Made by a program: the position numbers and the translations under genes
In this document: piece by piece, positions 2,646-23,904 of the stretch
Numbering within the stretch: position 1 is the stretch's first letter
Layout of the letters: every line of letters begins with the position of its first letter
Notes under the pieces: generated by a model
Told to the model about the DNA's origin: nothing
Database searches by the model: none
What the model saw: only the letters and a program-made list of their open reading frames with translations
Source of the DNA: a virus
DNA: 23,904 nucleotides
Direction: 5' to 3' (one strand)
Virus record (IMG/VR): IMGVR_UViG_3300032053_007366
Location: 1-23,904 of that record

Positions 2646-2858
2646 ATGATAAATAAAACTGAAAAGTTTATTGATAAGGCTAATAAGATACATAATCATA
2701 TTTATGATTATTCTCTTGTAAATTATCAGCATTCTCATAATAAAATTATATGTACAATTCATGGATTATTTAATCAAACACCCACAAATCATTTATCTGG
2801 ATATAATATTGTGTCAATATGGGAATATGATTGGAATTGTAATTATGAAATTACGTGA
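2646..2858 (+). pseudogene. Collapsed homing endonuclease (DUF723-like start joined to a Vsr-like end)
   Basis: A 70-codon ORF that reads as the two ends of a longer enzyme. Residues 7-52 match the repeat found at the N-terminus of many phage endonucleases (FIxKAxxIHxxxYDYSxVxY, then IICxxHGxFxQTPxNHLxG). That repeat should continue into a Cys-Pro-x-Cys knuckle. Here, straight after NHLSG, the protein jumps to YNIVSIWEYDWN, which resembles the very C-terminus of Vsr-like (EDxHD) homing endonucleases. The catalytic middle is missing, so an in-frame deletion at about 2801/2802 is inferred. The ORF starts 2 nt after the previous stop and runs 14 nt into the nucleotidyltransferase, whose start and probable ribosome site lie inside it. 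It is probably a non-functional scar, although it may still be translated. Confidence 0.7.
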
Positions 2859-3618
2859 ATTACTTTTTATAATACAAGCGACCCAAAAAGAAATAAAAGT
2901 TCCAGAGGCATTTATTTGCGGTGGTGTTTCAAGAGATAAATATATGGGGCGTTTAGATCATATTAATGATTTGGATATTACTAATGGGACAAATACAATT
3001 AATTATTTATCACAAGAGCTTGCTATTAAATTAAAAAGAAAATATAATGTAACTAGAAAGCCAATGCCAGATGGACATAGTACTATTTTTATTGGTGATT
3101 TAAAAATGGATTTTTCTTCTAATTTTAATGTTTCAGAAATTGATACTTATTTAAATAAGCTTGGAATTAATAAACCATCAGAAATGCAAAAAGAAATGTA
3201 TAGTAGAGATTTTACTTGCAATGCATTACTTATAGACACTGATCTTAAAAATATTATAGATATAACCAAGCATGGCTTCAAAGATATTAAAGCTAAAAAA
3301 ATTAAAACATGTTTAGATCCTTCAATTACTTTAACGTCTAATAGGAATAGAGTTGTAAGAGCAATTTATTTGGCATGTAAATTAGGATTTGATTTAGATG
3401 AATCAATAATTTCTTATGTACAAAAAAATCCTAATTCAGTAAAAATTTCAACTGAAAAATCAATGACAGAAAAATTAAATGAAGCTTTCGACAGGGACGC
3501 TGATAAGGCAAGCCATTTATTAAGTAAATTAAATTTATGGAAACTTGTGCCAATTTCAGAAAAGATTTACCCTTATTATGAAAAAAGTTTAAAAGGAAAA
3601 GTCAATGTCCCAAAATAA
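2845..3618 (+). CDS. CCA-adding enzyme / poly(A) polymerase family nucleotidyltransferase
   Basis: A 257-residue protein of the Pol-beta nucleotidyltransferase superfamily, class II tRNA nucleotidyltransferase type. The catalytic head is clear: FICGGVSRD at 23-31 (the GG-x-x-RD nucleotide-binding signature) and DLD at 42-44 with the two metal-binding Asp residues. A second signature, SRDFTCNAL, is followed by a stretch matching the IDP-FGG-DL-K region, and then by NRNRVVRAIYLACKLGF, matching the family's DPxRxLRAxRFAxxLGF helix. The enzyme would repair or add CCA ends of tRNAs, or tail RNA. It is shorter than full bacterial enzymes and appears to lack most of the body and tail domains. The frame is open from an ATG at 2761, but those 28 extra residues overlap the endonuclease scar and lack family similarity. 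The ATG at 2845 has a GGA about 9 nt upstream. It overlaps the next gene by 14 nt. Confidence 0.88.
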   Translation: MKLRELLFIIQATQKEIKVPEAFICGGVSRDKYMGRLDHINDLDITNGTNTINYLSQELAIKLKRKYNVTRKPMPDGHSTIFIGDLKMDFSSNFNVSEIDTYLNKLGINKPSEMQKEMYSRDFTCNALLIDTDLKNIIDITKHGFKDIKAKKIKTCLDPSITLTSNRNRVVRAIYLACKLGFDLDESIISYVQKNPNSVKISTEKSMTEKLNEAFDRDADKASHLLSKLNLWKLVPISEKIYPYYEKSLKGKVNVPK

Positions 3619-4363
3619 ACAATCTTATTTTCAAAATGGGCAAGGTAAAGATAGTCCTAATACCCCTACTCCTGGTAAAAAGAAATATAAATCTGATAAG
3701 GCAATTTTAGTTCAACCTCGTTTTGAAGAGCCATTATATAAAAATTATGATACATATGAAACTGATGGCGTAAGCGGCAAGGCTAAACATGGTCCTGGTG
3801 CCGGCTGGCACGATATGGGCAAATATAAAAGTATTACAGAATTTCTTAAAGCAAAAAGAAAAAAAATAAAAGATAAATATAAAGCAGATGATTCATGGAT
3901 TGAAGATAGCGGCAAGCTTAGTAAAAAAAAGAAGGCATATCGTAGGATGCAGCTTCTTTGCGCTTTTACTAAAACTGCTATTGATTTCGCAATTGATGAT
4001 CAAATAAATTCTATTTCTATTTTGCCGCCGGAAGGTGTATATAATGGATCAACTCCAATATCTGGTTATTTAGATAAATATTTGCCACAACATGATTTTG
4101 AAGGAAATTCTCCAGATAAATTGAATTTTGGTCAAGATTATACGGACGAATTTGATGATAAAAATGAAAAAGAATTATCTCAGGAAGAATTAGATAAATT
4201 AATTGAAAAATATTTATCAACCAAAGAGTCTCCTTTAATGGGTTTACCTAACGGAATAAAGCCAGAAGAAGATTTAGATGCCGATTATACAGTTAATGAT
4301 ATTAATCCAGAATATGGAACAACAGACTCTGGAAATACTACTTATGAGGGCGTAAGTCATTAA
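3605..4363 (+). CDS. Hypothetical protein carrying the YFQ...PTPG motif at its N-terminus
   Basis: A 252-residue protein of unknown function, highly charged and without membrane segments. Its start (MSQNKQS, then YFQNGQGK, then PNTPTPGKKKYKSDK) closely resembles two tandem repeats in the scaffold region at 19969-20424, and resembles the N-terminus created by the internal start at 19936. The middle (about 75-135) is a Lys-rich helical block with KKKKAYRRMQLLCAFTKTA. The C-terminal third is acidic and probably disordered. The shared motif suggests that this protein and the scaffold bind the same partner, or are processed the same way, in the prohead. That is inference from repeated sequence only. 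The start overlaps the nucleotidyltransferase stop by 14 nt. Confidence 0.78.
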   Translation: MSQNKQSYFQNGQGKDSPNTPTPGKKKYKSDKAILVQPRFEEPLYKNYDTYETDGVSGKAKHGPGAGWHDMGKYKSITEFLKAKRKKIKDKYKADDSWIEDSGKLSKKKKAYRRMQLLCAFTKTAIDFAIDDQINSISILPPEGVYNGSTPISGYLDKYLPQHDFEGNSPDKLNFGQDYTDEFDDKNEKELSQEELDKLIEKYLSTKESPLMGLPNGIKPEEDLDADYTVNDINPEYGTTDSGNTTYEGVSH

Positions 4364-6087: not shown

Positions 6088-9015
6088 ATGAGTAAAGACA
6101 ATAATTATGATAAAGATTTGTTTGATAAATTAAGGAAAGATTTATTAAATATCGATCCCGTTTTTTATTGTGAAAAGTATTTAACACTAGATGGTAAACC
6201 ATTTAGTTTGCACGGCAACGGCTACCGCCCTTTTGCAGATATCTATCGTTACATAGGAATTAAGGCATTAGAACCAGATGCAAAACCAGTTATTATTGTT
6301 AAAGGTCGTCAGGTCGGCGCCACAACAATGGCATCTGCACTTGAAATGTATTTCATGGGTAGTGGTTTATTTGGAACAGGCATTAAGCCGGCTATTAGAA
6401 TTATTCACGCCTTTCCACAATTAGAATTAGCTGCGGCATATTCTAAAACAAAACTCAATCAAATGATTATGTCTTCTGTTCCTGCAGAGGGCGAAGAAAA
6501 TAAAAAAGGAACTGCAAAGCCTAAGTCTCATATGCAGGCATTATTAGATCAATCTACTGCAACAAATGATAGCTTGCATTTCAAACAATTTCAGGGAGGA
6601 AACCATTTGTGGGTAGAATCTACTGGTATCGATGCTGACAGAATCATGGGTCGCCAATTATGTTTAGAAACAGATTTGCCAACACCTACTGGCTGGATTA
6701 AATTAAAAGACCTAAAAGAAGGAGATCAGCTTTTTGATGAAACAGGCAATATATGTAATATTACAAAATTACATCCTATAAATATCTCTCCAGAATCTTA
6801 TAGAATAATTTTTGATGATAATACTTTTGTTGATGCTTGCGCAGAACATCTCTGGGAAACATATACTAAAAATAATCGAAATAAAAAAACACCCGCAACC
6901 ATTAAAAATACAAAAGAAATATTAAAAACATTAAAAATTGGAAAAGAAAACAATCATTCTATTTCAAATTGTTTGCCAATTAATTATAAAGAAAAAGAAT
7001 TGGTTATTGATCCATATTTATTTGGATTATGGCTTGGCGATGGAGACAGGAGTGGAAGAATAGAAAGTGCTGACCCGGAAATATTAACTACTTTTAATCA
7101 TCATGTTAATAAATCTTCAATAAATCGTATTAATAATAGTTTTGGAAAAAGAAAATTAAGTCGTTCTAATTCATATAGAGTAGTTGGATTAACAACTAAT
7201 TTAACTAAAATTAATCAATTAAAAAATTCACACCCCAATTGCAGTAATAAAGATAAAGGATTTTATAATAAGCATGTCCCAGAACACTATATGCGCGGCT
7301 CTTTTGATCAAAGACTCGCTTTAGTTCAAGGACTAATGGATGCCGACGGTCATTGTGATAAAAATGGAAATATAGAATTTGTTCAGGTTAGAAAAAAATT
7401 GGCAGAACAAGTTTATGAATTAGTTTTAAGTTTGGGAATTAAGGCTTATTTTTATAAGCGTGAAAGCTGGAGATATAATAAACAATATCAAGATAAATAC
7501 AGAATTCGTTTTATAACTAATTTGCCAGTTTTTAGAATGAAAAGAAAATTAGAAAGAATAAAACATAATATTACTACAAAGTCTTCGCATAGATTTATTG
7601 TTAATATAAGCCCAATTAAATCAAAACCAATGAGATGTATTACTGTAGATAGCCAATCTCATTTATTTTTAATAACTAAAAAATGTATACCAACTCATAA
7701 TACTGCGGATATTATTTTCTTTGACGAAGTTCAAAAAACTACCGGCACAGCAATCGGAAATGCTTTAAAAATTCTAACTACTGCCAAATATGGTAAGCCA
7801 TCTAAAGGTGTACAAATTTATTTCGGAACACCAAGACGTAAGGGGAGCGATTTTTATAAGATGTGGCAAACGTCGTCACAACAATATTATTATTTAGGAT
7901 GTGAGGCTTGTAAGAAACATTTTCCATTATATACACCAGGAAGTGATGATTGGAAGACAATATGGTTGCATGGATACATTGTAAAATGTACACACTGCGG
8001 ACATGAACAAGATAAGCGCCCGGCTGCTGAACGTGGTAAATGGATTGCATTAATGGATTCTGATGATCCAGATTGTAAGATGATCGGATTTCATATCAAT
8101 CAATTATACATGCCAATGTTTACTCGCGAGGATATTGAAAACGAATTGCCAGGTAAACATGCCATTAATACTGAAAGAGTTTTTCAGAATGAAGTTCTTG
8201 GAGAATTTTTTCAAGGAGACTCTAGCCCAATTACTGTTGAAGAAATTGAACAACTATGTGGCGATCATGGTAGAAAATTTAGCGCCAGAGTTGAATCAAA
8301 CAAAAATGAAATTGTTATTATGGGAATAGACTATGGTGCTAGAGCCGATTTAGAACAAATGGCAAATCCAGATAAAAAAACTCAAGGGCAATCTTATAGT
8401 ACTGCAGTTATTTTATTAGCAAAAGGTCCAGGATTATTATCAATTGAATTTGCTTTAAAATTTAAAAGAAATGATATCGAAAGTAAAAAGGGAATAATAG
8501 ATCAGTTAATGAGACAATATAATATTGATTTAACTATTGGAGATATCGGATTCTCTCAAGACTTTTCTACTTTAATGCACACTGCACACGGAGATAAGTA
8601 TTTAGTTTCCCGTGCTCATAATAAAGTTAATAATCATGTTAAGTATTCTAATGATGCTTATCCAAAAGAAATTGTTTTTGAAAGAGATCATTATATTGGT
8701 GAACTATATGAACAAATGAAAAAGGGAATGATTAAATTTCCGTATGGCGATTATGAAAAAATTGGATGGTTAGTGGAGCATTGCGCTAGTATGGAGATAA
8801 AACCATCTATTTCAAGGGGTGGAGATCCAAGCATTCATTATGTTAAAGGCGGAACTCCAAATGACGGGTTTATGGCTTTACTTAACGCTTATATTGCTTA
8901 TAAATTTATTATTACAACAGGATTTACAAATAATAATCCGCTCTTGCAAAATCAAGACATGTCTAGTAGAAAAAAGCCATTAGTTCTGAGTGGTTATGTG
9001 AAAAGAAACATTTAA
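6088..9015 (+). CDS. terL: Terminase large subunit, GpA-like, with in-frame intein
   Basis: The DNA-packaging motor ATPase and nuclease. The precursor has 975 residues; removing the intein (192-538) leaves 628, normal for GpA-type large terminases. Walker A is VKGRQVGATT at 71-80. The intein sits immediately before Walker B, DIIFFDE at 541-547, which ends in the catalytic Glu. A four-Cys zinc ribbon (C605, C608, C634, C637) is typical of the lambda GpA group. The RNase-H-like nuclease domain shows its acidic residues in MGIDYG (D748), IGDIGF (D819) and PNDGFM (D926). No strong ribosome site precedes the ATG; the upstream stop is 6 nt away. The last 38 codons have a diverged duplicate at 9189-9305. 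Packaging must depend on protein splicing, because the intein separates the two halves of the ATPase site. Confidence 0.95.
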   Translation: MSKDNNYDKDLFDKLRKDLLNIDPVFYCEKYLTLDGKPFSLHGNGYRPFADIYRYIGIKALEPDAKPVIIVKGRQVGATTMASALEMYFMGSGLFGTGIKPAIRIIHAFPQLELAAAYSKTKLNQMIMSSVPAEGEENKKGTAKPKSHMQALLDQSTATNDSLHFKQFQGGNHLWVESTGIDADRIMGRQLCLETDLPTPTGWIKLKDLKEGDQLFDETGNICNITKLHPINISPESYRIIFDDNTFVDACAEHLWETYTKNNRNKKTPATIKNTKEILKTLKIGKENNHSISNCLPINYKEKELVIDPYLFGLWLGDGDRSGRIESADPEILTTFNHHVNKSSINRINNSFGKRKLSRSNSYRVVGLTTNLTKINQLKNSHPNCSNKDKGFYNKHVPEHYMRGSFDQRLALVQGLMDADGHCDKNGNIEFVQVRKKLAEQVYELVLSLGIKAYFYKRESWRYNKQYQDKYRIRFITNLPVFRMKRKLERIKHNITTKSSHRFIVNISPIKSKPMRCITVDSQSHLFLITKKCIPTHNTADIIFFDEVQKTTGTAIGNALKILTTAKYGKPSKGVQIYFGTPRRKGSDFYKMWQTSSQQYYYLGCEACKKHFPLYTPGSDDWKTIWLHGYIVKCTHCGHEQDKRPAAERGKWIALMDSDDPDCKMIGFHINQLYMPMFTREDIENELPGKHAINTERVFQNEVLGEFFQGDSSPITVEEIEQLCGDHGRKFSARVESNKNEIVIMGIDYGARADLEQMANPDKKTQGQSYSTAVILLAKGPGLLSIEFALKFKRNDIESKKGIIDQLMRQYNIDLTIGDIGFSQDFSTLMHTAHGDKYLVSRAHNKVNNHVKYSNDAYPKEIVFERDHYIGELYEQMKKGMIKFPYGDYEKIGWLVEHCASMEIKPSISRGGDPSIHYVKGGTPNDGFMALLNAYIAYKFIITTGFTNNNPLLQNQDMSSRKKPLVLSGYVKRNI
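6661..7701 (+). mobile_element. LAGLIDADG intein in the large terminase
   Basis: A 347-residue intein, precursor residues 192-538. It starts with Cys in CLETDLPTPTGWIKLKDLKEG (block A) and ends IPTHN, with Thr as the first residue of the C-extein. Block B is of the DACAEHLW type, and block F is RCITVDSQSHLFLITK. The penultimate His, final Asn and Thr+1 are all canonical for splicing. Between the splicing blocks lie two LAGLIDADG helices, LFGLWLGDGD (from about residue 311) and LVQGLMDADG (from 412), each keeping its metal-binding Asp. Both splicing and homing therefore look intact. The precise joined extein would read GRQL-TADIIFFDE. Insertion into the ATPase core is typical, because inteins persist where imprecise loss is lethal. 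Confidence 0.93.
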
Positions 9016-9382: not shown

Positions 9383-12300
9383 ATGGCTATTAATAAGAAA
9401 CAAAAAATTTGGGATGGTCCATCAAAATCAGATCAATATTTGGAAAATAGAGACAATATTCCACAAGTAAGCGCACTTATGTCTAAACACATATCTGCAA
9501 CTCGTCGTGATTCATTATCTGCTGAAGTAGATAAAGGATTGTTTAAAGATGGTTCTGGTCCAAATATAAATGATATTGGCGCTACTCAAAATTCCCACGT
9601 ATTATCATCTATTGGTTTAAAAAAATATGCACAGGTTGTTAGTGGTGGGGCTGGAGCATTTCGCGGCGGAAGCGGAGATACAGTAAAACAAACTCCAGAA
9701 GTATATTCTCCACTTTGGTTAAATAGTAATTTAAATCTTCCAAGAGATAGAGCTACCATTAATGCGTGGTGTAGAAGTTTTTATGCACTTAATCCATTTG
9801 TGCATAATGCTATTAATCTTCATAGTACTTATCCAATAAGTAAATTAAATATTAAATGTCCCAATAAAGATATTGAAAAATTCTTTAATGATATGATTGA
9901 AGAAATTGATTTAATGAATATTTGCGTGCAGATTGCGCAGGAATATTGGTTACTCGGAGAGTCGTTCGTATATGCAGAGCTAGATGAAAGCAAAGGAAAG
10001 TGGAGCCGTTTGCTTATTCAAAACCCTGATTATATGATTGTTAAGCGCACGGTTGTTGCTAACGAACCAATCATCATGTTGCGACCAGATGCTAATCTTG
10101 AAAAAATCATTTTCTCAAATAAACCAAGCGACATCGAACAACGTAAACAATTAAATCAACATATTATTGACTCAGTTAAACGTGGACAAAATATTCCACT
10201 AGATAATTTTCACGTTCATCATTTAGCTAGAAAAATTAGCCCATACGAAATTCGTGGAACAGGACTGCCAGTTTGTATTTTTAGACAGTTAATGCTTTTT
10301 GATAAGCTTAGAGAATGTCATGATGATCAAACTGAAGTATTAACAGATAAAGGATTTAAAAAAATCACTGATCTTGTTCATCAAACTACCGATTTAGCTC
10401 CTGATCCAAATTATGTTAATGGTGTAGAGTTAGATCAAGACGGCAAAATTACATCTATTTTGACAATGAAAGAAGATTTTAAAGTAGCATGTGTTAATCC
10501 TGAAAATAATAATGTTGAATATCATAAACCGATAGAATTGCACATGTCAAAATACACTGGCGAAATGTTGCATTTTACTGGTAAGCATGTGAATTCTTTA
10601 GTTACTCCTAACCACAAAATGTGGGCAAAAAAAAGAAATGGAAATGAATACGGCAATTTTGAAAAAATAAAAGCATCTGATTTTTGCGAAAAAGGCGTAT
10701 ATAAATTTCAAGCAAAAGCAAACTGGAATAATGGTAAAGAAGTAAGTGAAATAAATGTATTAGGAAATAACGTGCCGGTAGATATTTATTTGAAATATTT
10801 AGGGTATACTATAAGTGAGGGTTGTGTTGATACTTGTTTAAATAAAAAAACTCAACAATATCGAAATAGAACTAGTATTACTCAATCAGTAGAGTCTCCA
10901 TTTTATTTAAATATGAGAGAGACTACTGATAGTTTCGCGTCATTTTTAAATAAAAATGTTTGTCATGAAATTAAAGATAATTCAAATAATGGCAATCAAA
11001 ATTTATGGTCTGGGACGATTTGCAGTAAAGATCTTAATAAATATTTATTTGATCAAATCGGTATTAATAATAAATGTGACTCATTTAATAAAAAAATTCC
11101 AGAATGGATATTGCATTTAAGCAAGTCTCATTTGCAAGTTTTATTAGCCGCATTAGTAGATGGTGATGGAAGTAGAAAAATTATTGACAATAATACTGTC
11201 AGTTATAGATATACGACAGTGTCAGAAGAATTAGCAAATAATATTCAAGAATTAGTATTTAAATGTGGATATTCTGTTTTTATATCTAAAGATAAAAGAC
11301 CAAATAAATCTAGCTATGAATATACTGTGCGTTGGTCTGATAGTGAAATTGGCAGTTATCCAACAGTATGCAATAGTGATACTCAAAAAGCAGCTAAAAT
11401 AAATAAAGTTAATTATGATGGCATCGTTTGGTGCTTTGAAGTTCCTACCGGATTATTTATTACTAGAAGGGGTAATAGGATATCTATTCATGGAAATAGT
11501 AAATATGCGCAAGCTGATAATATGATAAACCCTTTAACAGTTGTTAAAATTGGTTCTGCGGAGTTTAAGCCAACTTTCGCTGACTTAGAGGCTTGGAGAA
11601 ATGTTTTTGAAGAGGCGCAATATGATAAAGATTTTAAAATCTTTACACATGAAGGGGTGACAGTTGAAAGAGTTGGTTATGGTCAAGGAATTTATGATAT
11701 TTCTGGAGATATCACTCAAATTATAAAAGAAATTTATGTTGGATTACAAGTTCCCCCAGTTCTTATGGATGGTGGAGCTGATACAACATATGCGAACGGC
11801 GGCGTCGCATTAGACGTTCTTCGTCAACGTTACATGCAATTTCGTAATATGATGTCTACTTGGCTAAAAAGAAAAATATTTGCACCAATCTCTAAGATTC
11901 AAGGGTTTTATGATTATAGTAATGGAGAGAAACAATTAATTGTTCCAGATATTGACTGGAATCATATGTCATTATTTGATGCTGGTGACTACATTAATAA
12001 TTTAGTTAATTTAACACAAGGACCAGATGCTGAACAAAAAAGAGCATCATTGCATACACTTTACCGTTCTATGGGTTTAGAATTTGAAGATGAAGTTCGT
12101 AAAATACGTAAAGAATCTATTCAATCTGCTATTTTTAGAAGAGAAAAAGCTGCTCTTGAAAAGATGGATCTGCACGCATTGAGATCATTAGATGAAGAAG
12201 ATGAAATTCCAGAACCAATTGGAGAGGCATTAACTGAAGCTCCACTTCCAGGTGAACAGCCAGGAGGAATGCCTGTAGCACCACCAGGCGGCGGAATGCC

Positions 12301-12421
12301 AGGATTAGATTTGGGAGGACCAGGTGGAATGTCACTGCCACCCCCGCTACCTCTACCAAGCGCTGCAGAAAACGCTCCGAGCCCTCCCCCGGCTCCTTCT
12401 CCCGAACCTCCGCCAGTTTAA
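9383..12421 (+). CDS. Portal protein with in-frame intein
   Basis: The head portal vertex through which DNA is packaged. The precursor has 1012 residues; removing the intein (312-705) leaves 618. The call rests on position directly after the large terminase, on length, and on portal-like segments: INAWCRSFYALNPFVHNAIN (about 125-144), a stem region with EYWLLGESFVYAELDESKGKW and IQNPDYMIVKR, then HHLARKISPYEIRGTGLPV before the intein. After it come KYAQADNMINPLTVVKIG, GVALDVLRQRYMQFRNMMS and a clip/wing-like remainder. The last about 70 residues are a Pro/Gly/Ala-rich tail (GGMPVAPPGGG, ending SPEPPPV) that is probably disordered and exposed. The ribosome site TGAGG is well placed. Portal function is an inference from context and partial similarity, but a strong one. 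Confidence 0.85.
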   Translation: MAINKKQKIWDGPSKSDQYLENRDNIPQVSALMSKHISATRRDSLSAEVDKGLFKDGSGPNINDIGATQNSHVLSSIGLKKYAQVVSGGAGAFRGGSGDTVKQTPEVYSPLWLNSNLNLPRDRATINAWCRSFYALNPFVHNAINLHSTYPISKLNIKCPNKDIEKFFNDMIEEIDLMNICVQIAQEYWLLGESFVYAELDESKGKWSRLLIQNPDYMIVKRTVVANEPIIMLRPDANLEKIIFSNKPSDIEQRKQLNQHIIDSVKRGQNIPLDNFHVHHLARKISPYEIRGTGLPVCIFRQLMLFDKLRECHDDQTEVLTDKGFKKITDLVHQTTDLAPDPNYVNGVELDQDGKITSILTMKEDFKVACVNPENNNVEYHKPIELHMSKYTGEMLHFTGKHVNSLVTPNHKMWAKKRNGNEYGNFEKIKASDFCEKGVYKFQAKANWNNGKEVSEINVLGNNVPVDIYLKYLGYTISEGCVDTCLNKKTQQYRNRTSITQSVESPFYLNMRETTDSFASFLNKNVCHEIKDNSNNGNQNLWSGTICSKDLNKYLFDQIGINNKCDSFNKKIPEWILHLSKSHLQVLLAALVDGDGSRKIIDNNTVSYRYTTVSEELANNIQELVFKCGYSVFISKDKRPNKSSYEYTVRWSDSEIGSYPTVCNSDTQKAAKINKVNYDGIVWCFEVPTGLFITRRGNRISIHGNSKYAQADNMINPLTVVKIGSAEFKPTFADLEAWRNVFEEAQYDKDFKIFTHEGVTVERVGYGQGIYDISGDITQIIKEIYVGLQVPPVLMDGGADTTYANGGVALDVLRQRYMQFRNMMSTWLKRKIFAPISKIQGFYDYSNGEKQLIVPDIDWNHMSLFDAGDYINNLVNLTQGPDAEQKRASLHTLYRSMGLEFEDEVRKIRKESIQSAIFRREKAALEKMDLHALRSLDEEDEIPEPIGEALTEAPLPGEQPGGMPVAPPGGGMPGLDLGGPGGMSLPPPLPLPSAAENAPSPPPAPSPEPPPV
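10316..11497 (+). mobile_element. LAGLIDADG intein in the portal protein, with an atypical C-terminal junction
   Basis: A 394-residue intein, precursor residues 312-705. It begins with Cys (CHDDQTEVLTDKGFKKITDL, block A). Block B contains LVTPNHKMW with the T-x-x-H motif. LAGLIDADG helices are YLGYTISEG (about 473-481) and LLAALVDGDG (about 586-595), both with the acidic catalytic residue. Block F is GIVWCFEVPTGLFIT, and block G is ISIHGN followed by Ser+1. The final Asn and Ser+1 are canonical, but the residue before Asn is Gly instead of the usual His, with a His one place earlier. Inteins without the penultimate His can still splice, sometimes slowly. The spliced junction would read KLRE-SKYAQ. 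It is clearly different from the terminase intein in sequence and length. Confidence 0.9.
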
Positions 12422-15596: not shown

Positions 15597-16331
15597 ATGA
15601 GCGAAATTGATTTAATAATACGTTTTGCTGATAATTATTATAATAATTGTCAACAAATGGTGAAAGTTTCCCGCATCCGGAAACTTCCGGATGGAAAGTT
15701 TCGCGCAGTATCTCGTGATGGTAAAAATCTAGGAACTTTTAAATCTAGAGAAGCTGCTAAAAAGAAATTAAAACAAGAAGAATATGCTAATAGTTTTGAT
15801 CATTCAGATGCAGATGATTCTGTTATTGATTTAACAGATACAGAAGAATTTGCTTATTCTGCAGTAATGCGCCAATTAAGACAAAAGGCATCTAAAGAGC
15901 AAGTTATTTTATTTTTAAAGATGTTTAAAAATCAATTTGATAATGCAATAAAGAAAAAAATACAAAAACCAGAACGTGTAGCATTGCAAAATGCTTTGGT
16001 TACTTTTAATAAAGTACATAAAATTAAATTAGATAAAAAATTAACTAAAAATGCTGCAGTTGCCGAACTTGGTGATGCAGAGCATGTTGGAAAATACCTT
16101 TCTGATATTGTTAAATTTACAATAGCAAAAATGCAGCAAGAAAAAAGACTAAATGCATTACAAAAATTAAAACAAAAATTTTATTCTATGAATGAGAATG
16201 AAATTGCATCTAAAAATTTACCAGAATCTGCGGCAGTTGGGCAATCAATTACATTCGTTAAACATGTTTTATTTAATCATAATTCAAAATATATTAGAGA
16301 AGTTCTTAACTCTTTGGTAAGAAATCTATGA
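15597..16331 (+). CDS. Hypothetical protein with a short phage-type GKNLGTF...REAAKKKLKQ motif
   Basis: A 244-residue protein. Residues about 24-61 (KLPDGKFRAVSRDGKNLGTF, then SREAAKKKLKQEEY) form a short beta-hairpin-plus-helix motif that recurs at the ends of many unrelated phage proteins and is of unknown role. Residues about 75-244 are almost all helical and Lys-rich. A second ATG at residue 21 (15657) is possible, but the first lies 3 nt after the previous stop, as is usual here. A perfect GC-rich inverted repeat lies within the early coding part. The stop overlaps the phosphatase start by 4 nt (ATGA), suggesting coupled translation. Confidence 0.75.
   Translation: MSEIDLIIRFADNYYNNCQQMVKVSRIRKLPDGKFRAVSRDGKNLGTFKSREAAKKKLKQEEYANSFDHSDADDSVIDLTDTEEFAYSAVMRQLRQKASKEQVILFLKMFKNQFDNAIKKKIQKPERVALQNALVTFNKVHKIKLDKKLTKNAAVAELGDAEHVGKYLSDIVKFTIAKMQQEKRLNALQKLKQKFYSMNENEIASKNLPESAAVGQSITFVKHVLFNHNSKYIREVLNSLVRNL
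15674..15693. other. Perfect inverted repeat inside the coding region
   Basis: CATCCGGAA, a 2-nt gap (AC), then TTCCGGATG. In RNA it would form an 8-bp GC-rich stem with a 4-nt loop. It is flanked by direct repeats of GAAAGTTTC at 15662-15670 and 15694-15702. It starts about 77 nt downstream of the gene start and is unusually GC-rich for this genome. Confidence 0.6.
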
Positions 16332-17110
16332 TTGAAAGATTTAGGAAAGTTATAGATGGACTTTTTAGAGGGAGCGCACCAACTCCACATGATGTTCTTT
16401 TGTTAAAACAAAATCATGATATTAATAAAATAATTAGTTTAGATCAAGATGCTGGCAATAAAATTGCTCGCACATGTAAAATGCTTGGAATTGAGCACGT
16501 TATGATTCCATTAGATGCAACTAAAATATCATTAATGAAATTATTTCATCATGATATAAAAAAATTATTACTTGATAATGGTCCAACTTTTGTTCATTGT
16601 CATTTTGGTAAAGATCGCACCGGATTATTAATTGCTATTTTTAAAATAAAATATATGGGCATTAGTAATGAAGATGCTCTTAAAGATGCGCAATCTTTAG
16701 GGTTCGGATTAAACGTGTCTAAAAATTGGAGAGATTTGTATAAAAAACTTATACTAGAAACTAAGTCAAAAAAAGATTCTAATAATGCTGATATAGCTTC
16801 GGGTGAACAAAAGAGTATAGTAAATAATGAGCGAGAGAATGTGGGAGATAATAAGGACTCTTATTTGGATCAAGCAAATCAAGGGTCTTTTGCTCCGTAT
16901 ATAAATAAAACTAGACAATATCCCGCAGATTCCGTTTATAATAGCATTAATGACCAATCTCAGACTAGAGAAAATTATAAAACAAATAAGCCAATAAAAG
17001 AACATAATCTTGAGCATGATGTAATGCCACAAGTTGGTGTATTTAATAATGATGCAGGCGGCAGAGGATTTGGTCCAGTAGAAAATGCAGGCGGTTTCTT
17101 TTATGATTAA
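16328..17110 (+). CDS. Cys-dependent protein tyrosine / dual-specificity phosphatase
   Basis: A 260-residue protein. The N-terminal about 155 residues are a phosphatase domain: IDGLFRGSAPTPHDVLLLKQ (about 9-28), the usual entry strand and turn of this superfamily, then a PLDATK loop with a possible general-acid Asp63, then the P-loop VHCHFGKDRTG at 89-99. The P-loop has the nucleophile Cys91 and the phosphate-binding Arg97 (H-C-x5-R). HC-x-x-GKDRTG is characteristic of bacterial tyrosine and phosphoinositide phosphatases. The last about 100 residues are polar and disordered, ending in a Gly-rich tail (DAGGRGFGPVENAGGFFYD) of unknown use. The substrate could be phosphoprotein, RNA 5' end or lipid; the sequence does not decide. 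Translation is likely coupled through the 4-nt overlap upstream. Confidence 0.88.
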   Translation: MIERFRKVIDGLFRGSAPTPHDVLLLKQNHDINKIISLDQDAGNKIARTCKMLGIEHVMIPLDATKISLMKLFHHDIKKLLLDNGPTFVHCHFGKDRTGLLIAIFKIKYMGISNEDALKDAQSLGFGLNVSKNWRDLYKKLILETKSKKDSNNADIASGEQKSIVNNERENVGDNKDSYLDQANQGSFAPYINKTRQYPADSVYNSINDQSQTRENYKTNKPIKEHNLEHDVMPQVGVFNNDAGGRGFGPVENAGGFFYD

Positions 17111-17913: not shown

Positions 17914-18075
17914 ATGTCCTTCCTAAAAACTGGTGACGGAAAAATAATAAATGTTCTAGATGATAAGAACATGACTGAAGAGCAGAAAAAGGCTCTCAAA
18001 GATTCATCTAAACAGATAAGTAAGCAATCCACTAACGATCAGGATGCTTCTGAAGTGAAAAATTCGGGGAGATGA
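17914..18075 (+). CDS. Small hypothetical protein (53 residues)
   Basis: The ORF begins MSFLKTGDGKIINVLDDKNM and continues with a Lys/Glu/Ser/Gln-rich hydrophilic helix ending KNSGR. It is polar, with no membrane segment. It fills an otherwise empty stretch, follows a candidate promoter, and its TGA overlaps the HNH gene's ATG (ATGA), as real neighbours do in this window. The ribosome site is weak (GAGTGA). Its function is unknown. As the last native gene before an inserted endonuclease, it may belong with the protease/scaffold gene downstream. Confidence 0.6.
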   Translation: MSFLKTGDGKIINVLDDKNMTEEQKKALKDSSKQISKQSTNDQDASEVKNSGR

Positions 18076-18758
18076 TAATATCATATATGTTAAAAATGTG
18101 TCACATATGTTTTGAAGAAAAGGATGTCTTATTTTTTTGTAAAAACAAAAATAATATCGATAAACTATCTATTCAATGTAAAAGTTGTGCAAAATACTAT
18201 AGAGATACGCATAAAGAAGAAAAATCTAAATATTTGTCTTCAAACGTAATACATAAACAAAAATACGCAATAGACAATAAAGATAGGGCTAATTTTTTGC
18301 GTCGTGAAAAAAGAAGAAATAATCCTGAAAAAACAAAAACACAGGCTAAAATTAATTATTTACGAAATAAAATCAAAATACGAGCAAAGCAAAAGCTTTT
18401 TTATATAAAAAATATAGCATATTTCCAGATTAAGAGCAAGAAGTATAGAAATCAAAATGTTGAATCTATTTTATTAAGAAATAGACAACGAAAGAGTCGG
18501 CTGAAATCTTATCCAACTATTAAACAATCAGAAATTGATTGTTTATTAAAAACAAATAATCATCAATGCTTATATTGTGGCATTAAAGTGATGAGAAAAA
18601 GTAATCTACATATAGATCATAAGGTTCCATTAGTTCGCAACGGCAGTCATACTATAGAAAATATGGCGCCATCATGTATGCAATGTAATTTGCAAAAGGG
18701 AACTAAAACGTCAGAAGAATTTATTAAACTATTAAGTGGTAACAATAATGCAAAATAA
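18072..18758 (+). CDS. Free-standing HNH homing endonuclease
   Basis: A 228-residue nuclease that looks intact. The N-terminus has a four-Cys zinc knuckle (C10, C13, C36, C39, in CHIC and CKSC), common in phage HNH enzymes. A long, very basic helical middle (about 45-150) probably binds DNA. The HNH fold is at the C-terminus: CLYCG (166-170), IDHKVPL with His183, an Asn at 197, and CMQCNLQKGTKT (202-213). The start could instead be the Met at residue 6 or 9; the ATG at 18072 gives a 4-nt overlap with the small ORF. It ends 11 nt inside the protease/scaffold gene, lodged between two morphogenesis genes like other free-standing homing endonucleases. No intron boundaries are evident. Confidence 0.9.
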   Translation: MIISYMLKMCHICFEEKDVLFFCKNKNNIDKLSIQCKSCAKYYRDTHKEEKSKYLSSNVIHKQKYAIDNKDRANFLRREKRRNNPEKTKTQAKINYLRNKIKIRAKQKLFYIKNIAYFQIKSKKYRNQNVESILLRNRQRKSRLKSYPTIKQSEIDCLLKTNNHQCLYCGIKVMRKSNLHIDHKVPLVRNGSHTIENMAPSCMQCNLQKGTKTSEEFIKLLSGNNNAK

Positions 18759-21700
18759 ATCTGGTTTTACTAAAATAGGCGAAGCATCTGCAATTAATCT
18801 TGAATCAATTGAATCATGTTTGCCAGCTGTTAGTGCGGAGATGCTAGAAGAGTTTAGAAAGACGGCGGCAGATCTTAAAAAAATTGCTCCAAAAGCAGAA
18901 GATTTCCTATACTTCTCAGCCGTAATGATGCATGCAGCTGAAGCTGCAGGACTTCATGATGATGGTACTCCGAGATTAAATGCTCGTGGAGAAAAGGTTG
19001 AAGTAGGTTGGGACAAATCTGGTGGCACTTGGCGCTGGATGAGCAACGATTCAAGTATTAAGCCTTATAAGAATTCTAATGGAGATATCTTTCCAGAAGA
19101 AGAATTAGTTAAAGCATATAAAAAGTGGCAGCACAAACCTCTATGTATCGATCATAAATCAAGTTCAGTCGATCATGTTAGAGGTTTTATTGTTGATACA
19201 TATTATGATCGCTCTTTAAAAAGAGTAATTGCATTATGTGCGCTTGATAAAGCAGGCTACCCACAATTAGCAAGACAAGTTTCTACTGGCGTATCTAATT
19301 GCGTATCTATGGGAACTGCAGTTGGAAGAGCAATTTGTACTGATTGTGCAAGAGTTGCAAGAACTGAAGCAGATTTCTGCGACCATATGAGAAAAAAGTC
19401 TTGTTATGGCGAAATTAATATTGATTTAAATCCAATTGAGTTATCAATTGTAGTTAATGGAGCTGATCCAAGAGCTAATATTAAACACATTATTGCTTCA
19501 GCTAATACATTAAATAGCTATCTAGAAACTCAAAGCAATAAATTAGCCAATTATGAAGCAACCATATCATATACTAAAGATGGCTCGCCCGATGGCTCAA
19601 TTCCAGATACCAAAACAATAAGTGGTAAGGATTTAGATAGCTTTAAACAAGATTTTGAAAGAGCCTTAGGCGAACTTAAGGAAATTAATTCAACAATTTC
19701 AGAAAATAATACTAATGATATGGTATCTAATCAATCCCCAGGTTTTGAATCTGAATCTGGCTTGGATAATTCTGGATTAGCTCCACCGCATGCAAGATAC
19801 GCATCCGATGATGTAGAGGTGGACTCTATAGCAGAGCTTCGTAAAGTAACAGCAGCAATTGAACTTAAGCTGAACCAAATGAAACAAAGCTTAGATAAGT
19901 TAGAAAAAACTTCTACAAAAATACAAGAGGAAAATATGTCTGGATCAAACAATATTAATAAAACTGGTTATTTCCAAGGTACGGAAGAGCCTACCCCTGG
20001 ATCTCCAAAATATACTGCCGACCCTCTTAACGTTAAGTTAAGAACAGATGGCGATAAACATATGGATGGCGAAACTCCATTTCCAGATACTGGTTCAGTA
20101 GATAGTCTTTATCCAGGCGATCTTGAAAAAAAGAAACTACTTGCTCGTGCAGAAGCGGAAGACAGAGCAATGAGACGTAATGCAATCGTTGCACTTGCAA
20201 AAGAAGCATTAGATAAAAAAGCTTATTTTCACAATGATGATGGCAAAAAAGAAAACCCAGGAACTCCAACTCCAGGCAAGCCAAAATATCAAGCTGATAA
20301 ATTGAATCTTGATGCCCGTGACGACGATAAACACATGAATGGCAAAAAACCATTTCCAGGTGTTGGTCCAGTTGACGGAATGTATCCAGAAGATATTAAG
20401 ACAAAAGAACTTCATAGCAGAGCCGCTCTTAGAGCCCGCTTTATTAAGGTTCCAAACTCTAACGGCACTCAAGACTTATCTAAGAGTGCATGGGAAGTTT
20501 TCTTGGGAGACAAATTATTATTAACTGCATCTGTTGAAGAATTATCTCGCGGACGCTCTGATGTTGGTTATGGAAACATTGCAACCAAAGAATACGGCGC
20601 TAAATTAATTGAAACAGTTAGAACTTTTGGTTCTGATGGTGTTAAAGCTCTTCTTAAACAAGCTCAAGTCGCACCAGAAGCAGCCCCAGAAGAAGCTACT
20701 CCAGAAGAAGCAGCTCCAGAAGAAGGCGAAGACAAGGGCGGTAAGGGTGATCCAAAGACTGCAGCTCTTAAATTAGCTGAAAAAGTTAGAGATCTTAGTT
20801 CTGATTTAGTGGAAGCTGTCAGAGCATTAGCTGGTGAACAAACTGAAATGGGTGAATCTGAAGGCGCAGGAGATATGGGAACTGCAACAGCATCAGATGA
20901 AACATTTAGTACAACTGCCTTTAATTCAGTTAGACACGAATTAAATGGTGCGCTTACTCAGGCTATTAAAGAGTCAGTTGCAACACTTAATGATCATAGT
21001 CAAGAATTAGAAATGATTTCTGGAATGTATGATAAGGGAGCAGTTAATTCTAATAATGAAGAAATAGTTGGATCTCTTGTTGAGGACGCGTTAACTGAAG
21101 CAAAATCAGCCGTTGCTGATGGTTTCAAATTAATGACAGCTTTTGTTAAGTATGCTCGTGGTACTAAAGCAATCGTAAAACGCGCTGAAATTGAAGCAGA
21201 ACTTAATGCACTAGCTGAGGGAGACACTATGAGCGCAGATACTCAAATGGGAGACGATTTAATGTCTCTTATCAATGATGCAAATGATGGTTTAGGTGAA
21301 GTTGCCGAATTAATGGCAGATGATAATGATGCAGAATTAGGATCTGAAGATTTTAATATTGAAGGTCTTGAGCTTTCAGACGAAAATTTAGATCTTACAA
21401 ATTCAGATGATAACGATGTAATAACTGGAACTCCTGAAGAATTAGCTAAGCAAAAATTTATGCCAGGAACTGAAGTTAAAGTTGCAAGTTATGATACCAG
21501 AGAAGGTCGCGCAGAATTACGCGCCAAATTAGCAGGAGAGTTTAATCCAATATTAGACCAAGCTCATCCAAGTGGTGGATTTACAACTGATTTAGATACG
21601 AAGCCAACTGGTGACTTAGCTAGAGTTGAGGATCTTGAAGAAAAACACAAGGCAATGCTTGATCTTGCAAATGCACCTCCAAAGGTTCGTAAAGAAGCAG

Positions 21701-22197
21701 AAGCTATTAACAGATTAGTTTCTGAAGGAAAACTTGATCCATCAGATTTAGAAGCACTTGTTGCGGAAGGTCTTGATAAGGATGCAGTTTCTTACTGGAA
21801 GAAATTCTATAGTCAAGTTGATGGTGGTTCTGAATTCGCAAGCGAGCTTGTAAAAGAGCATGTTAAAGCTGAACTTGAAACTGAAATCAATACTTACAAA
21901 GTTAAATTAGCTCGTTCTTATGAATTAGCTTATGATATGGCAGATCGAGGATTATGTCATCATGAAAGAAGCGCAATATCTGATCAAGTTGAAGAGATTA
22001 TGAAGTTTAATGATGACTCTTTTGAATCATTAAAAAGAGTAGTTGCAAGACATACTCCAATCATGCGCAAAGAAGCGGGTCGTATGCCACAAGTTGGATT
22101 CTTGGGCGACGGCGAAATTAATACGGCTGCTCCAGTTGATGACTATGCACAATTATCTGCAATGTTTTCAAAGAACACCAAAAGAGGATCTTTCTAA
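18748..22197 (+). CDS. Prohead protease fused to a long scaffold-like protein
   Basis: A 1149-residue protein. The N-terminal about 250 residues have the assemblin-type (HK97 prohead protease, S78-like) pattern: His136 in IDHKSSSVDHVRGFI, a strand VIALCALDK, then Ser187 in GVSNCVSMG, then LNPIELSIVVNGADPRA (about 227-243), matching the family's L-x-E-x-S-x-V-x-x-P/G-A motif. A Cys/His insert (C197, C200, C211, H213) right after the Ser could bind zinc. Residues about 265-390 are linker and coiled coil. About 400-560 hold two tandem YFQ/PTPG repeats. The rest is acidic and helical, as in scaffold proteins, with Glu/Pro/Ala linkers. Start: the frame is open from a GTG at 18736; the ATG at 18748, overlapping the HNH stop by 11 nt, is preferred. 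Expected role: build the prohead, cleave it, and leave. Catalytic residues are assigned by pattern only. Confidence 0.8.
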   Translation: MQNKSGFTKIGEASAINLESIESCLPAVSAEMLEEFRKTAADLKKIAPKAEDFLYFSAVMMHAAEAAGLHDDGTPRLNARGEKVEVGWDKSGGTWRWMSNDSSIKPYKNSNGDIFPEEELVKAYKKWQHKPLCIDHKSSSVDHVRGFIVDTYYDRSLKRVIALCALDKAGYPQLARQVSTGVSNCVSMGTAVGRAICTDCARVARTEADFCDHMRKKSCYGEINIDLNPIELSIVVNGADPRANIKHIIASANTLNSYLETQSNKLANYEATISYTKDGSPDGSIPDTKTISGKDLDSFKQDFERALGELKEINSTISENNTNDMVSNQSPGFESESGLDNSGLAPPHARYASDDVEVDSIAELRKVTAAIELKLNQMKQSLDKLEKTSTKIQEENMSGSNNINKTGYFQGTEEPTPGSPKYTADPLNVKLRTDGDKHMDGETPFPDTGSVDSLYPGDLEKKKLLARAEAEDRAMRRNAIVALAKEALDKKAYFHNDDGKKENPGTPTPGKPKYQADKLNLDARDDDKHMNGKKPFPGVGPVDGMYPEDIKTKELHSRAALRARFIKVPNSNGTQDLSKSAWEVFLGDKLLLTASVEELSRGRSDVGYGNIATKEYGAKLIETVRTFGSDGVKALLKQAQVAPEAAPEEATPEEAAPEEGEDKGGKGDPKTAALKLAEKVRDLSSDLVEAVRALAGEQTEMGESEGAGDMGTATASDETFSTTAFNSVRHELNGALTQAIKESVATLNDHSQELEMISGMYDKGAVNSNNEEIVGSLVEDALTEAKSAVADGFKLMTAFVKYARGTKAIVKRAEIEAELNALAEGDTMSADTQMGDDLMSLINDANDGLGEVAELMADDNDAELGSEDFNIEGLELSDENLDLTNSDDNDVITGTPEELAKQKFMPGTEVKVASYDTREGRAELRAKLAGEFNPILDQAHPSGGFTTDLDTKPTGDLARVEDLEEKHKAMLDLANAPPKVRKEAEAINRLVSEGKLDPSDLEALVAEGLDKDAVSYWKKFYSQVDGGSEFASELVKEHVKAELETEINTYKVKLARSYELAYDMADRGLCHHERSAISDQVEEIMKFNDDSFESLKRVVARHTPIMRKEAGRMPQVGFLGDGEINTAAPVDDYAQLSAMFSKNTKRGSF
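19925..19938 (+). promoter_or_regulatory. Internal ribosome site and in-frame start within the protease/scaffold gene
   Basis: AAGAGGA at 19925-19931 lies 4 nt before an in-frame ATG at 19936, as good as the ribosome sites of the real genes nearby (AGAGG before 4421, AGAGGA before 22228). The encoded start, MSGSNNINKTGYFQ, resembles the real N-terminus MSQNKQSYFQ of the gene at 3605. Confidence 0.6.
19936..22197 (+). CDS. Probable nested scaffold protein (internal in-frame product)
   Basis: Translation from the internal ATG would give the last 753 residues of the protease/scaffold gene, without the protease. This is the arrangement of lambda C/Nu3 and of herpesvirus UL26/UL26.5, in which a shorter scaffold is made in excess from within the protease gene. 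It would contain both YFQ/PTPG repeats, a conserved-looking domain (SAWEVFLGDKLLLTASVEEL onward), acidic helices and the C-terminal helical region ending NTKRGSF. A second possible internal start, with GAGGGAG 5 nt before an ATG at 21229, would give 322 residues. Expression is inferred from sequence only. Confidence 0.5.
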   Translation: MSGSNNINKTGYFQGTEEPTPGSPKYTADPLNVKLRTDGDKHMDGETPFPDTGSVDSLYPGDLEKKKLLARAEAEDRAMRRNAIVALAKEALDKKAYFHNDDGKKENPGTPTPGKPKYQADKLNLDARDDDKHMNGKKPFPGVGPVDGMYPEDIKTKELHSRAALRARFIKVPNSNGTQDLSKSAWEVFLGDKLLLTASVEELSRGRSDVGYGNIATKEYGAKLIETVRTFGSDGVKALLKQAQVAPEAAPEEATPEEAAPEEGEDKGGKGDPKTAALKLAEKVRDLSSDLVEAVRALAGEQTEMGESEGAGDMGTATASDETFSTTAFNSVRHELNGALTQAIKESVATLNDHSQELEMISGMYDKGAVNSNNEEIVGSLVEDALTEAKSAVADGFKLMTAFVKYARGTKAIVKRAEIEAELNALAEGDTMSADTQMGDDLMSLINDANDGLGEVAELMADDNDAELGSEDFNIEGLELSDENLDLTNSDDNDVITGTPEELAKQKFMPGTEVKVASYDTREGRAELRAKLAGEFNPILDQAHPSGGFTTDLDTKPTGDLARVEDLEEKHKAMLDLANAPPKVRKEAEAINRLVSEGKLDPSDLEALVAEGLDKDAVSYWKKFYSQVDGGSEFASELVKEHVKAELETEINTYKVKLARSYELAYDMADRGLCHHERSAISDQVEEIMKFNDDSFESLKRVVARHTPIMRKEAGRMPQVGFLGDGEINTAAPVDDYAQLSAMFSKNTKRGSF
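19969..20424 (+). repeat. Two tandem diverged repeats, YFQ/PTPG...DKHM...PFP...YP type
   Basis: Copy 1 (19969-20151, 61 residues) and copy 2 (20224-20424, 67 residues) align along their whole length. Shared residues are YF, PTPG-x-PKY-xx-D-x-LN, DKHM-x-G, PFP-xx-G-x-VD, YP-x-D and a final RA. The copies differ at many positions, so the duplication is old and both copies seem to have been kept. The first part also occurs at the N-terminus of the 3605 gene. Confidence 0.85.
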
Positions 22198-22227: not shown

Positions 22228-22896
22228 ATGAAAAATAACAGTATATCTGATTTTGTCGCCGCAGCAATGGATGCAGTATTAAAAAGTGATGAACATAAAG
22301 CTCTTTTCAATACGCAATATAAATTTGCGTCTGATGAAAATGATGCAAAATGTAGTAAATGTGGCAGTGGTGCATGTGCCTGTGGTGATACCGCAGCAGC
22401 TGATACTGCATTTGTAGATGATTCTTCAGCTGATGATTTATTAGCCGCAGACTCTTTAGCTGATGATTTAGATGCGTCAGATTCGGCTGAAGAAATGTCC
22501 GCTTCTGCCTTTGATCTTGCAATTGATAGTTTATTAACTGCATCTGCAGCTCTCGATTCTGTTGGCATGGAAAAAAGCTCTTCTCTTAGCTTAAAACTAG
22601 CATCATTAGTAGTTGAAGCAAAGAAAAAAGATAAAAAAGACAATGATAGCATGTCGGCTGATGACAAGGCTAAGAAGAAAGCCAAAATGCAAGCTGCAAA
22701 AGAAAAAGAAGAAGCTGCAAAAAAGAAAGAAAAAGAAAAAGCAGCAAAAGCTAAAGAAAAAGAAAAAGCAGCAAAAGATGCACAATCTGCAAAAGATAAT
22801 GCCGCAAAAGCAAAAGCAAAGGCAGCAAAAGAAAAAGACATGCAGTCAGCTAAAGACAAAAAAGCTAAAGAACAAAAAGGTTCTTCTCAAAAATAA
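22228..22896 (+). CDS. Hypothetical protein: Cys cluster, acidic middle, Lys/Ala helix
   Basis: A 222-residue protein with three very different parts. The N-terminus (ISDFVAAAMDAVLKSDEH) resembles that of the next two genes. At 42-52 a cluster CSKCGSGACACG could bind metal. Residues about 55-93 are Asp/Ala/Ser-rich and strongly acidic. Residues 95-129 (FDLAIDSLLTASAALDSVGM onward) match the helical module of the next two genes. From 131 to the end it is a Lys/Ala/Glu helix with KEKEKAAK-type repeats, likely a single long charged helix. It has a good ribosome site, AGAGGA. A long antisense ORF over it is a composition artefact. The extreme charge would suit an internal head or DNA-associated protein; that is inference. 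Confidence 0.8.
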   Translation: MKNNSISDFVAAAMDAVLKSDEHKALFNTQYKFASDENDAKCSKCGSGACACGDTAAADTAFVDDSSADDLLAADSLADDLDASDSAEEMSASAFDLAIDSLLTASAALDSVGMEKSSSLSLKLASLVVEAKKKDKKDNDSMSADDKAKKKAKMQAAKEKEEAAKKKEKEKAAKAKEKEKAAKDAQSAKDNAAKAKAKAAKEKDMQSAKDKKAKEQKGSSQK

Positions 22897-22909
22897 TAGG
22901 TAAATAAAA

Positions 22910-23620
22910 ATGTTTAAAATCGGCAGCTTTGAAAATGAGATATTGCTGGGCATGGAGAAATCTTTGCGCGCGAATCAATCAGAAGAATCAAATCAAGGAT
23001 TCAATAAGCTAGCCAAAGCTGTCGATTTCTTAAACAACGCTGCGTCAATTTTTGATCAAGCCGACATGCACAAAGAGGCTTCAGAAATAACTAATATTTT
23101 ACAAAAAATAGCTCAAGACAATTACTCTCCATTAAAAAGAATGGATGCTTTAGCACCTAGAGAAGAAGAATCTAAAAATTCATTTTTTCAAAAGAATTTT
23201 CAAAAAATGGATTCTTTAATTAAATCAATGGCAGCAGGTACTGGTGTAGAAGTAAATTTTAGAGAAATTAGCGATTGGGGTACAGGTTGGCGTATATCTA
23301 TACCAGTACCATATACTGATGAAATAGTTGCAGCTATAGCGGCAGCAAAAAAAACTGGAGCTTCTGTTGTAGATTATGCTCAAATGCCAAAAACAAAACG
23401 TATGCTTGACCAATATGTTAATAAGTGTAATGCGCAAATTATAACAGCATTAAATGCACAGTTTCCTGGCTGGAACAAGTTTGCTATTATTGCAATTCAT
23501 GCAAATGTAAATAGAGAAAAATATGGCAATGATGTGCCCCAATTTAAACCATTTGGTACATATTTAGGAAGTGGCACTGGATATCATGAAAATTTTAATG
23601 AGCAACCAGATCAAAAATGA
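22910..23620 (+). CDS. Hypothetical protein with N-terminal helical module shared with neighbours
   Basis: A 236-residue protein. Residues 7-23 (FENEILLGMEKSLRANQ) and 31-68 (FNKLAKAVDFLNNAASIFDQ, then a stretch with Met-x-x-EA and ILQKIA) form a helical module also seen in the preceding and following genes. After a linker, residues about 100-225 look like a separate alpha/beta domain with EVNFREISDWGTGWRISIPV and a Gly-rich end (GTYLGSGTGYHENF). No enzyme motif is recognised. The stop overlaps the next start as ATGA. Position after the protease/scaffold, and an N-terminal module common to several genes, would fit a head protein whose N-terminus is a targeting or cleaved segment; this is not demonstrated. 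Confidence 0.78.
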   Translation: MFKIGSFENEILLGMEKSLRANQSEESNQGFNKLAKAVDFLNNAASIFDQADMHKEASEITNILQKIAQDNYSPLKRMDALAPREEESKNSFFQKNFQKMDSLIKSMAAGTGVEVNFREISDWGTGWRISIPVPYTDEIVAAIAAAKKTGASVVDYAQMPKTKRMLDQYVNKCNAQIITALNAQFPGWNKFAIIAIHANVNREKYGNDVPQFKPFGTYLGSGTGYHENFNEQPDQK

Positions 23621-23904
23621 TTAAAAAAAGCGTATTTGAAGATGAATTAATTAGGGGTATGCAATTGCAATTAGCTGCTAATGAACAATCTGCAGCTATT
23701 GATAATTTGGGCACCGCAGTAGAGAATCTACACTCAGCAGTTGAAGTATTTGAAGAAGCCGGAATGAAAGTAGAAGCTGATGCAGTATTAGATATTCTAT
23801 TAAAATTTGCGAAAGACCACAGAAAAGTAGTTGATCCACACACTAAAGGATTAACTTCTGAGAAAATGATTGCTAATTGGAAAGAACACGGTTCATGGTT
23901 TAAT
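23617..23904 (+). CDS. Partial gene, third member of the helical-module family
   Basis: The first 96 codons of a gene that leaves the window. It starts MIKKSVFEDELIRGMQLQLA and carries the shared module (NLGTAVENLHSAVEVFEEAG, then MKVEADAVLDILLKFA). Beyond about residue 66 it differs from its neighbour (DPHTKGLTSEKMIANWKEHG). The ATGA overlap with the preceding stop indicates coupled translation. Product unknown. Confidence 0.8.
   Translation, partial: MIKKSVFEDELIRGMQLQLAANEQSAAIDNLGTAVENLHSAVEVFEEAGMKVEADAVLDILLKFAKDHRKVVDPHTKGLTSEKMIANWKEHGSWFN

Follow-up and report, generated by a model that had tools for sequence, protein, structure and literature searches.

Two adjacent genes with a common helical module beside the head protease gene of an uncultured phage, and their possible part in prohead assembly

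Gene layout and relationship to phage G

The window, which is the whole 23,904-base virus record, carries three consecutive genes, here named A, B and C, immediately downstream of a protease gene. The features of interest are as follows.

6088-9015: large terminase gene
9383-12421: portal gene
18736..22197, + strand: protease gene (1153 residues), adjoining the A-B-C cassette upstream
22228..22896, + strand: gene A, probable split module, its parts set apart by an acidic linker and followed by a Lys-rich helical tail (76 orthologues; AlphaFold)
22228..22335, + strand: gene A residues 1-36, N-terminal helix element ending in YKFAS, a candidate protease motif (conservation; profile comparison)
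22495..22632, + strand: gene A residues ~90-135, helical hairpin, probable equivalent of module helices 2/3, holding LKLAS, a candidate protease motif
22910..23620, + strand: gene B, module plus a C-terminal domain seen only in the window
22910..23122, + strand: gene B module, residues 1-71 (profile E 5e-27; pLDDT 91-98 for residues 31-70)
23105..23116, + strand: KIAQ, closing the gene B module; candidate protease motif, found in few B proteins (5/72)
23123..23617, + strand: gene B C-terminal extension, predicted alpha/beta, weak KH-II/BolA-like match
23617..23904, + strand: gene C, module plus the start of a conserved tail, reaching the contig end
23617..23820, + strand: gene C module, residues 1-68 (profile E 6e-24; BLASTP with the B module, E 8e-13)
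23803..23814, + strand: KFAK, closing the gene C module; candidate protease motif (64/72 C proteins have K-x-A/G here)
23833..23904, + strand: start of the conserved region of gene C, DxHTKGLTxEKMxxNxKxHGxxFN (alignment)

Genes B and C overlap by 4 nt (ATGA) in the window. In relatives the genes run portal, protease, A, B, C, approximately seven further genes, and the major head protein. In the window the terminase and portal genes each contain an intein-like insert with a LAGLIDADG domain, and an HNH endonuclease ORF (18072-18758) is located just upstream of the protease gene.

The product of the 18736..22197 gene consists of a protease in its N-terminal ~270 residues, a long acidic region, and a C-terminus similar to gp21 of phage G. 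It matches the PHROG head maturation protease (E 1e-12) and shows 32% identity to gp19 of Bacillus phage G. The protease family profile recovered gp19 with an E-value of 6e-32 and gp21, which corresponds to the far end of the gene, with one of 2e-4; these are separate genes in phage G, whereas they are fused in the window. In a relative, L013, the capsid protein has 54% identity to gp27 of phage G, and its PHROG match is 'major head protein' (1e-77). Homologs of both the protease and the major head protein, the two proteins by which we recognize a phage G-like lineage, are therefore present, and by these comparisons the head genes share a remote ancestry with those of Bacillus (Lysinibacillus) phage G. 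This agrees with the preliminary description, which had placed the cassette right after a protease/scaffold gene: the upstream gene is related to gp19 plus gp21. While the gp19-gp27 region of phage G holds homologs of the protease, the gp21-like C-terminus and the major head protein, the module described below was not detected in positions 1-30000 of that genome. The protease also contains, at residues 408-429 and 493-522, two copies of a segment, K-x-(A/G/S)-YF..PTPGxxKYxxDK, which recurs at the start of the gene at 3605-4363 (E 7e-7); it constitutes a further shared module of linear type, the beginning of which resembles K-x-A.

The module of genes B and C and its distribution

Both sequence patterns that had been described from the genes starting at 22910 and 23617 are exact letter matches in each: the first reads FENEILLGMEKSLRAN in gene B and FEDELIRGMQLQLAAN in gene C, and the second AVDFLNNAASIFDQADMHKEASEITNILQKIA and AVENLHSAVEVFEEAGMKVEADAVLDILLKFA, respectively. 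The B and C modules share 37% identity over ~67 residues (BLASTP E 8e-13), and the family profile recovers both among the window proteins with the E-values listed above. The two modules are homologous. In its predicted structure the module begins with a short amphipathic helix, after which comes a tight helical hairpin; AlphaFold places the helices of gene B at residues 6-50 and 54-72.

IMG/VR was searched with two single proteins and two alignments, which yielded more than 100 loci, and the module was found in 151 distinct proteins by iterated profile search. At 72 loci two neighbouring genes of one strand, and no others, carry it; 28 of these pairs have a 4-nt ATGA overlap, and 71 either overlap or lie no more than 21 nt apart. 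The B/C pair is not universal, since seven loci possess a single copy. In a tree based upon 67 columns, C stands apart from B and forms one clade in 96% of the bootstrap trees, and the single-copy module genes cluster with B. The tree indicates two paralog clades, one of B and one of C, and a duplication of the module, in line with the preliminary description; together with the adjacency of the two genes in all 72 two-copy loci, this points to one old duplication, maintained as a linked pair. The single-copy loci include L003 (8521-9135), L004 (9989-10441), L114, L171 and L172. In the last of these the module is joined to a C-like tail (SSEKMVKNLKEKGWVF), a hint of an ancestral single gene.

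A profile search for the module elsewhere in the genome, conducted on the large records of relatives, returned only this gene pair. Eleven such records, ranging from 32 to 446 kb, contained no module outside this locus: ten full records had two strong matches each and the eleventh had one. In G003, a record of 446 kb, genes were called over 400 kb, and the 558 obtained included no copy beyond the two. The idea of a genome-wide tag is thus rejected, the module being confined to one locus in the eleven records.

No relative of the module was found among 84,980 bacterial and archaeal genomes. Named phages likewise gave none by tblastn with A or B, nor for the gene following C, and gene C itself had one weak, chance-like match there (E 0.04). 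Comparison of the module with Pfam and PHROGs produced only isolated sub-threshold matches, inconsistent among members. A match of gene C to the PHROG 'tail protein' phrog_24249 (E 0.003) is attributed to chance, 1 of 21 relatives matching, and a downstream gene, E (MTFKH..., L013:11400), was rejected as a fourth carrier because the likeness is merely a 13-column local motif. Two uncharacterised proteins of uncultured Caudovirales phage are present in BFVD: A0A6J5RIB5, a member of the gene B family (51% identity over 69 aa), and A0A6J5RM24, a member of the gene A family (50%).

Gene A and a candidate protease motif

The 76 orthologues of gene A follow one plan: an element at the N-terminus (residues 1-36), then an acidic linker, 41-192 aa long, a hairpin element and a Lys-rich tail. 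In the alignment rows printed, the net charge of the linker is -6 to -18 and that of the tail +11 to +19; among 22 sequences A34 is invariant and K32 is conserved in at least 90%.

Intact gene A does not match the module profile significantly (E 0.05-9). After removal of the linker by hand, its two pieces aligned in register over 59 of the 67 columns, with a score of 22.5 (E 5e-4), which was reached by none of 100 column permutations (maximum 18.3) and by none of 537 natural decoy concatenations from other head genes (maximum 20.8). AlphaFold predicts helices at residues 6-18, 88-111 and 115-140 with a disordered linker, and the helix boundaries and turn predicted for gene A agree with those predicted for gene B. 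Furthermore, in those relatives for which the locus was read through, gene A immediately precedes B. We consider that gene A is probably a split relative of the module. Alternatively, two generic helical pieces might have converged upon a module-like appearance, only B and C being related. The non-significant direct search, and the appearance of the match only once the linker had been taken out manually, are what one would then expect, but the permutation and decoy results, the agreement of helix and turn positions in the predicted models and the position of A next to B argue against convergence, which we judge to be the considerably less likely explanation. The 22228 gene had been credited with a weaker form of the module, split by an acidic stretch. 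This is upheld, because the permutation and decoy tests and the predicted helices agree, as a case of probable homology, short of proof.

The module of gene C ends with K-[ILFVMYT]-[AG] in 64 of 72 cases and that of gene B in 5 of 72 (Fisher B vs C 3e-25). In C the motif occupies the last turn of a predicted helix, which speaks against a cleavage site. The B protein of the window is among the five, its site being located between the module and the extension. In G003 the pattern K-[ITLVFYM]-A-[QSADENGY], which was picked after the sequences had been seen, is present within the first 90 residues of 15 out of 33 head-cluster proteins, including the capsid protein (LVKYAA) and the portal (KKYAQ), versus 31 out of 441 proteins elsewhere (Fisher 2e-8; 0/1000 shuffles), and ten control patterns were unenriched. 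The motif is kept at orthologous places at a frequency of 0.74 versus 0.33 for other K-x-b pairs (p 8e-6). With the pattern fixed, further loci, which being orthologous are not independent, gave enrichment in L027, L004 and L026 (0/1000 shuffles each), a weak result in L010 and none in L003; phage G, Tunturi_5 and an uncultured 485-kb phage each gave a p of about 0.03. In phage G, gp19 has K-T-A-A and K-I-A-G, for example. The bare K-x-A pair without residue classes was not outstanding in single loci.

We regard K-x-A as a candidate cleavage motif of the phage protease, a lead and not proof. From the frequencies in C and B it follows that cutting, if any, concerns C, perhaps A and the B protein of the window, and not B generally. 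Should the motif be right, it might allow maturation sites to be predicted across the whole uncultured clade.

Extensions, tails and possible function

Gene B is bare in 51 of the 72 phages, ending no more than 14 residues past the module. The remaining 21 possess a C-terminal extension of 51-168 residues, and at least eight kinds were distinguished. One of these is helical, has ~94 residues and occurs in about ten phages; that of L010 shows a weak match to DUF5661 (E 0.0098), below the cut-off. The extension in the window (~165 residues) was seen in the window alone, having no relative in IMG/VR and none in Pfam. Both its VIA Z scores to KH-II domains (up to 6.8) and its Foldseek E-values (0.7 or more) are within the range of unrelated folds.

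Gene C contains an optional middle part, a conserved tail (DxHTKGLTPEKMVxNLKxHGxxFN) and an acidic end (...LEV...FEDE); in the window most of this downstream part is unseen because the contig end cuts the gene. The preliminary description held that the portions downstream of the module differ, as different cargo would. That is correct for B, the extensions of which vary, and wrong for C, the tail of which is conserved.

In the same description the module was a portable capsid-targeting tag, carrying swappable cargo into the prohead and then removed, as with the internal proteins of coliphage T4. The differing B extensions, one of them weakly DUF5661-like, fit such a tag, as do the constant placement of the module near the N-terminus and, in the window, the K-x-A site between the module of B and its cargo. 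Against this, B is the module and little else in most phages, the C-terminus of gene C is conserved and not swapped, no other protein in the 400+ kb records carries the module, and the presence of a B extension is not significantly associated with the motif site (Fisher p 0.14). With the C tail conserved and no other protein of these records carrying the module, the general capsid tag is not supported, and we consider targeting followed by removal to be unlikely; a dedicated prohead-assembly module is favoured.

The targeting sequence is the sole conserved part of the T4 internal proteins (PMC3012670). Like gene B, the T4 proteins IPI-III combine a conserved N-terminal part, the CTS, with variable C-terminal parts, and in both systems a phage with a prohead protease has a possible protease site after the conserved part. 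Unlike the CTS, which is a short peptide, the module is ~67 aa in length and predicted to be folded, is without cargo in most phages, and is limited to two genes per genome. As an analogy, the T4 internal proteins would suit B in a minority of phages and not the whole system.

The T4 core proteins gp67, gp68 and gp22 are small, helical and highly charged, and their genes, like A, B and C, are situated between those for the portal/protease and the major capsid protein. Trimming of core and internal proteins is a known activity of the proteases of T4 and of phiKZ-like phages. The acidic and basic stretches of gene A resemble these highly charged core proteins, while the duplication of the module and the fusion of a scaffold-like region to the protease set the present system apart from them. 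In the giant phages SPN3US and phiKZ, head proteins, some of them paralogous, shed N-terminal propeptides at a short motif, AXE (PMC10052503); the motif here would be a different one, K-x-A.

The position of genes A, B and C suggests that their products are located in the head or its core. Perhaps B and C constitute instead a non-virion heteromeric chaperone or adaptor for the adjoining head (or neck) proteins, gene A being an unrelated charged assembly factor. Tandem, often overlapping paralogues are suggestive of a heteromer, there is one locus per genome, and the short helical hairpin may be TPR-like. The TPR comparison is weak, the best PDB profile match being Rap phosphatase J (E 0.028), with gamma-SNAP also weak and ComR_TPR (E 0.0023) under the cut-off; a fold search gave nothing significant. 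If the K-x-A motif is real, its presence at the end of the C module and the match of A to the module tie all three genes to the protease pathway, and we find the chaperone reading doubtful.

We propose that A, B and C form a prohead-assembly cassette of a huge-phage lineage, a reading to which, with the B-C assembly and the C/A cleavage that it entails, we give about an even chance. The module was duplicated and is retained as two co-encoded paralogues, B and C, the products of which would come together in the core of the prohead, along with the protease-scaffold protein. The phage protease would then cut C, and A, at the K-x-A motifs that end the folded element, and in some phages, including that of the window, B would likewise bring an added domain into the head. 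Another possibility, which we rate as rather improbable, is that the module is a folded prohead-entry domain, with B and C as a core pair, B doubling as a carrier of interchangeable passengers, and the protease recognising K-x-A, a motif that would be legible directly in the head proteins of the lineage.

Outside the phiKZ and T4 groups, little is known of how phages with very large genomes build their heads. The present results supply a module that has a name and can be searched for, present at 79 phage loci on contigs of up to ~480 kb and tied to the phage G head lineage, as well as a protease motif open to testing and a set of passenger domains that amounts to a natural series.

A few other genes of the region may be recorded. 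Several relatives contain an extra ORF shortly 3' of gene C (L010, 10282-11241; L015, 11383-12216; L026, 11066-11905), which looks like a mobile or homing gene. A tRNA nucleotidyltransferase-like gene (2761-3618) is found amid the packaging/head region of the window. Finally, a dual-specificity/tyrosine-phosphatase-like gene (16328-17110) is retained within the head cluster of relatives, and the end of its product, RGFGPxEN-GGFFYD, is similar between the window and L013.
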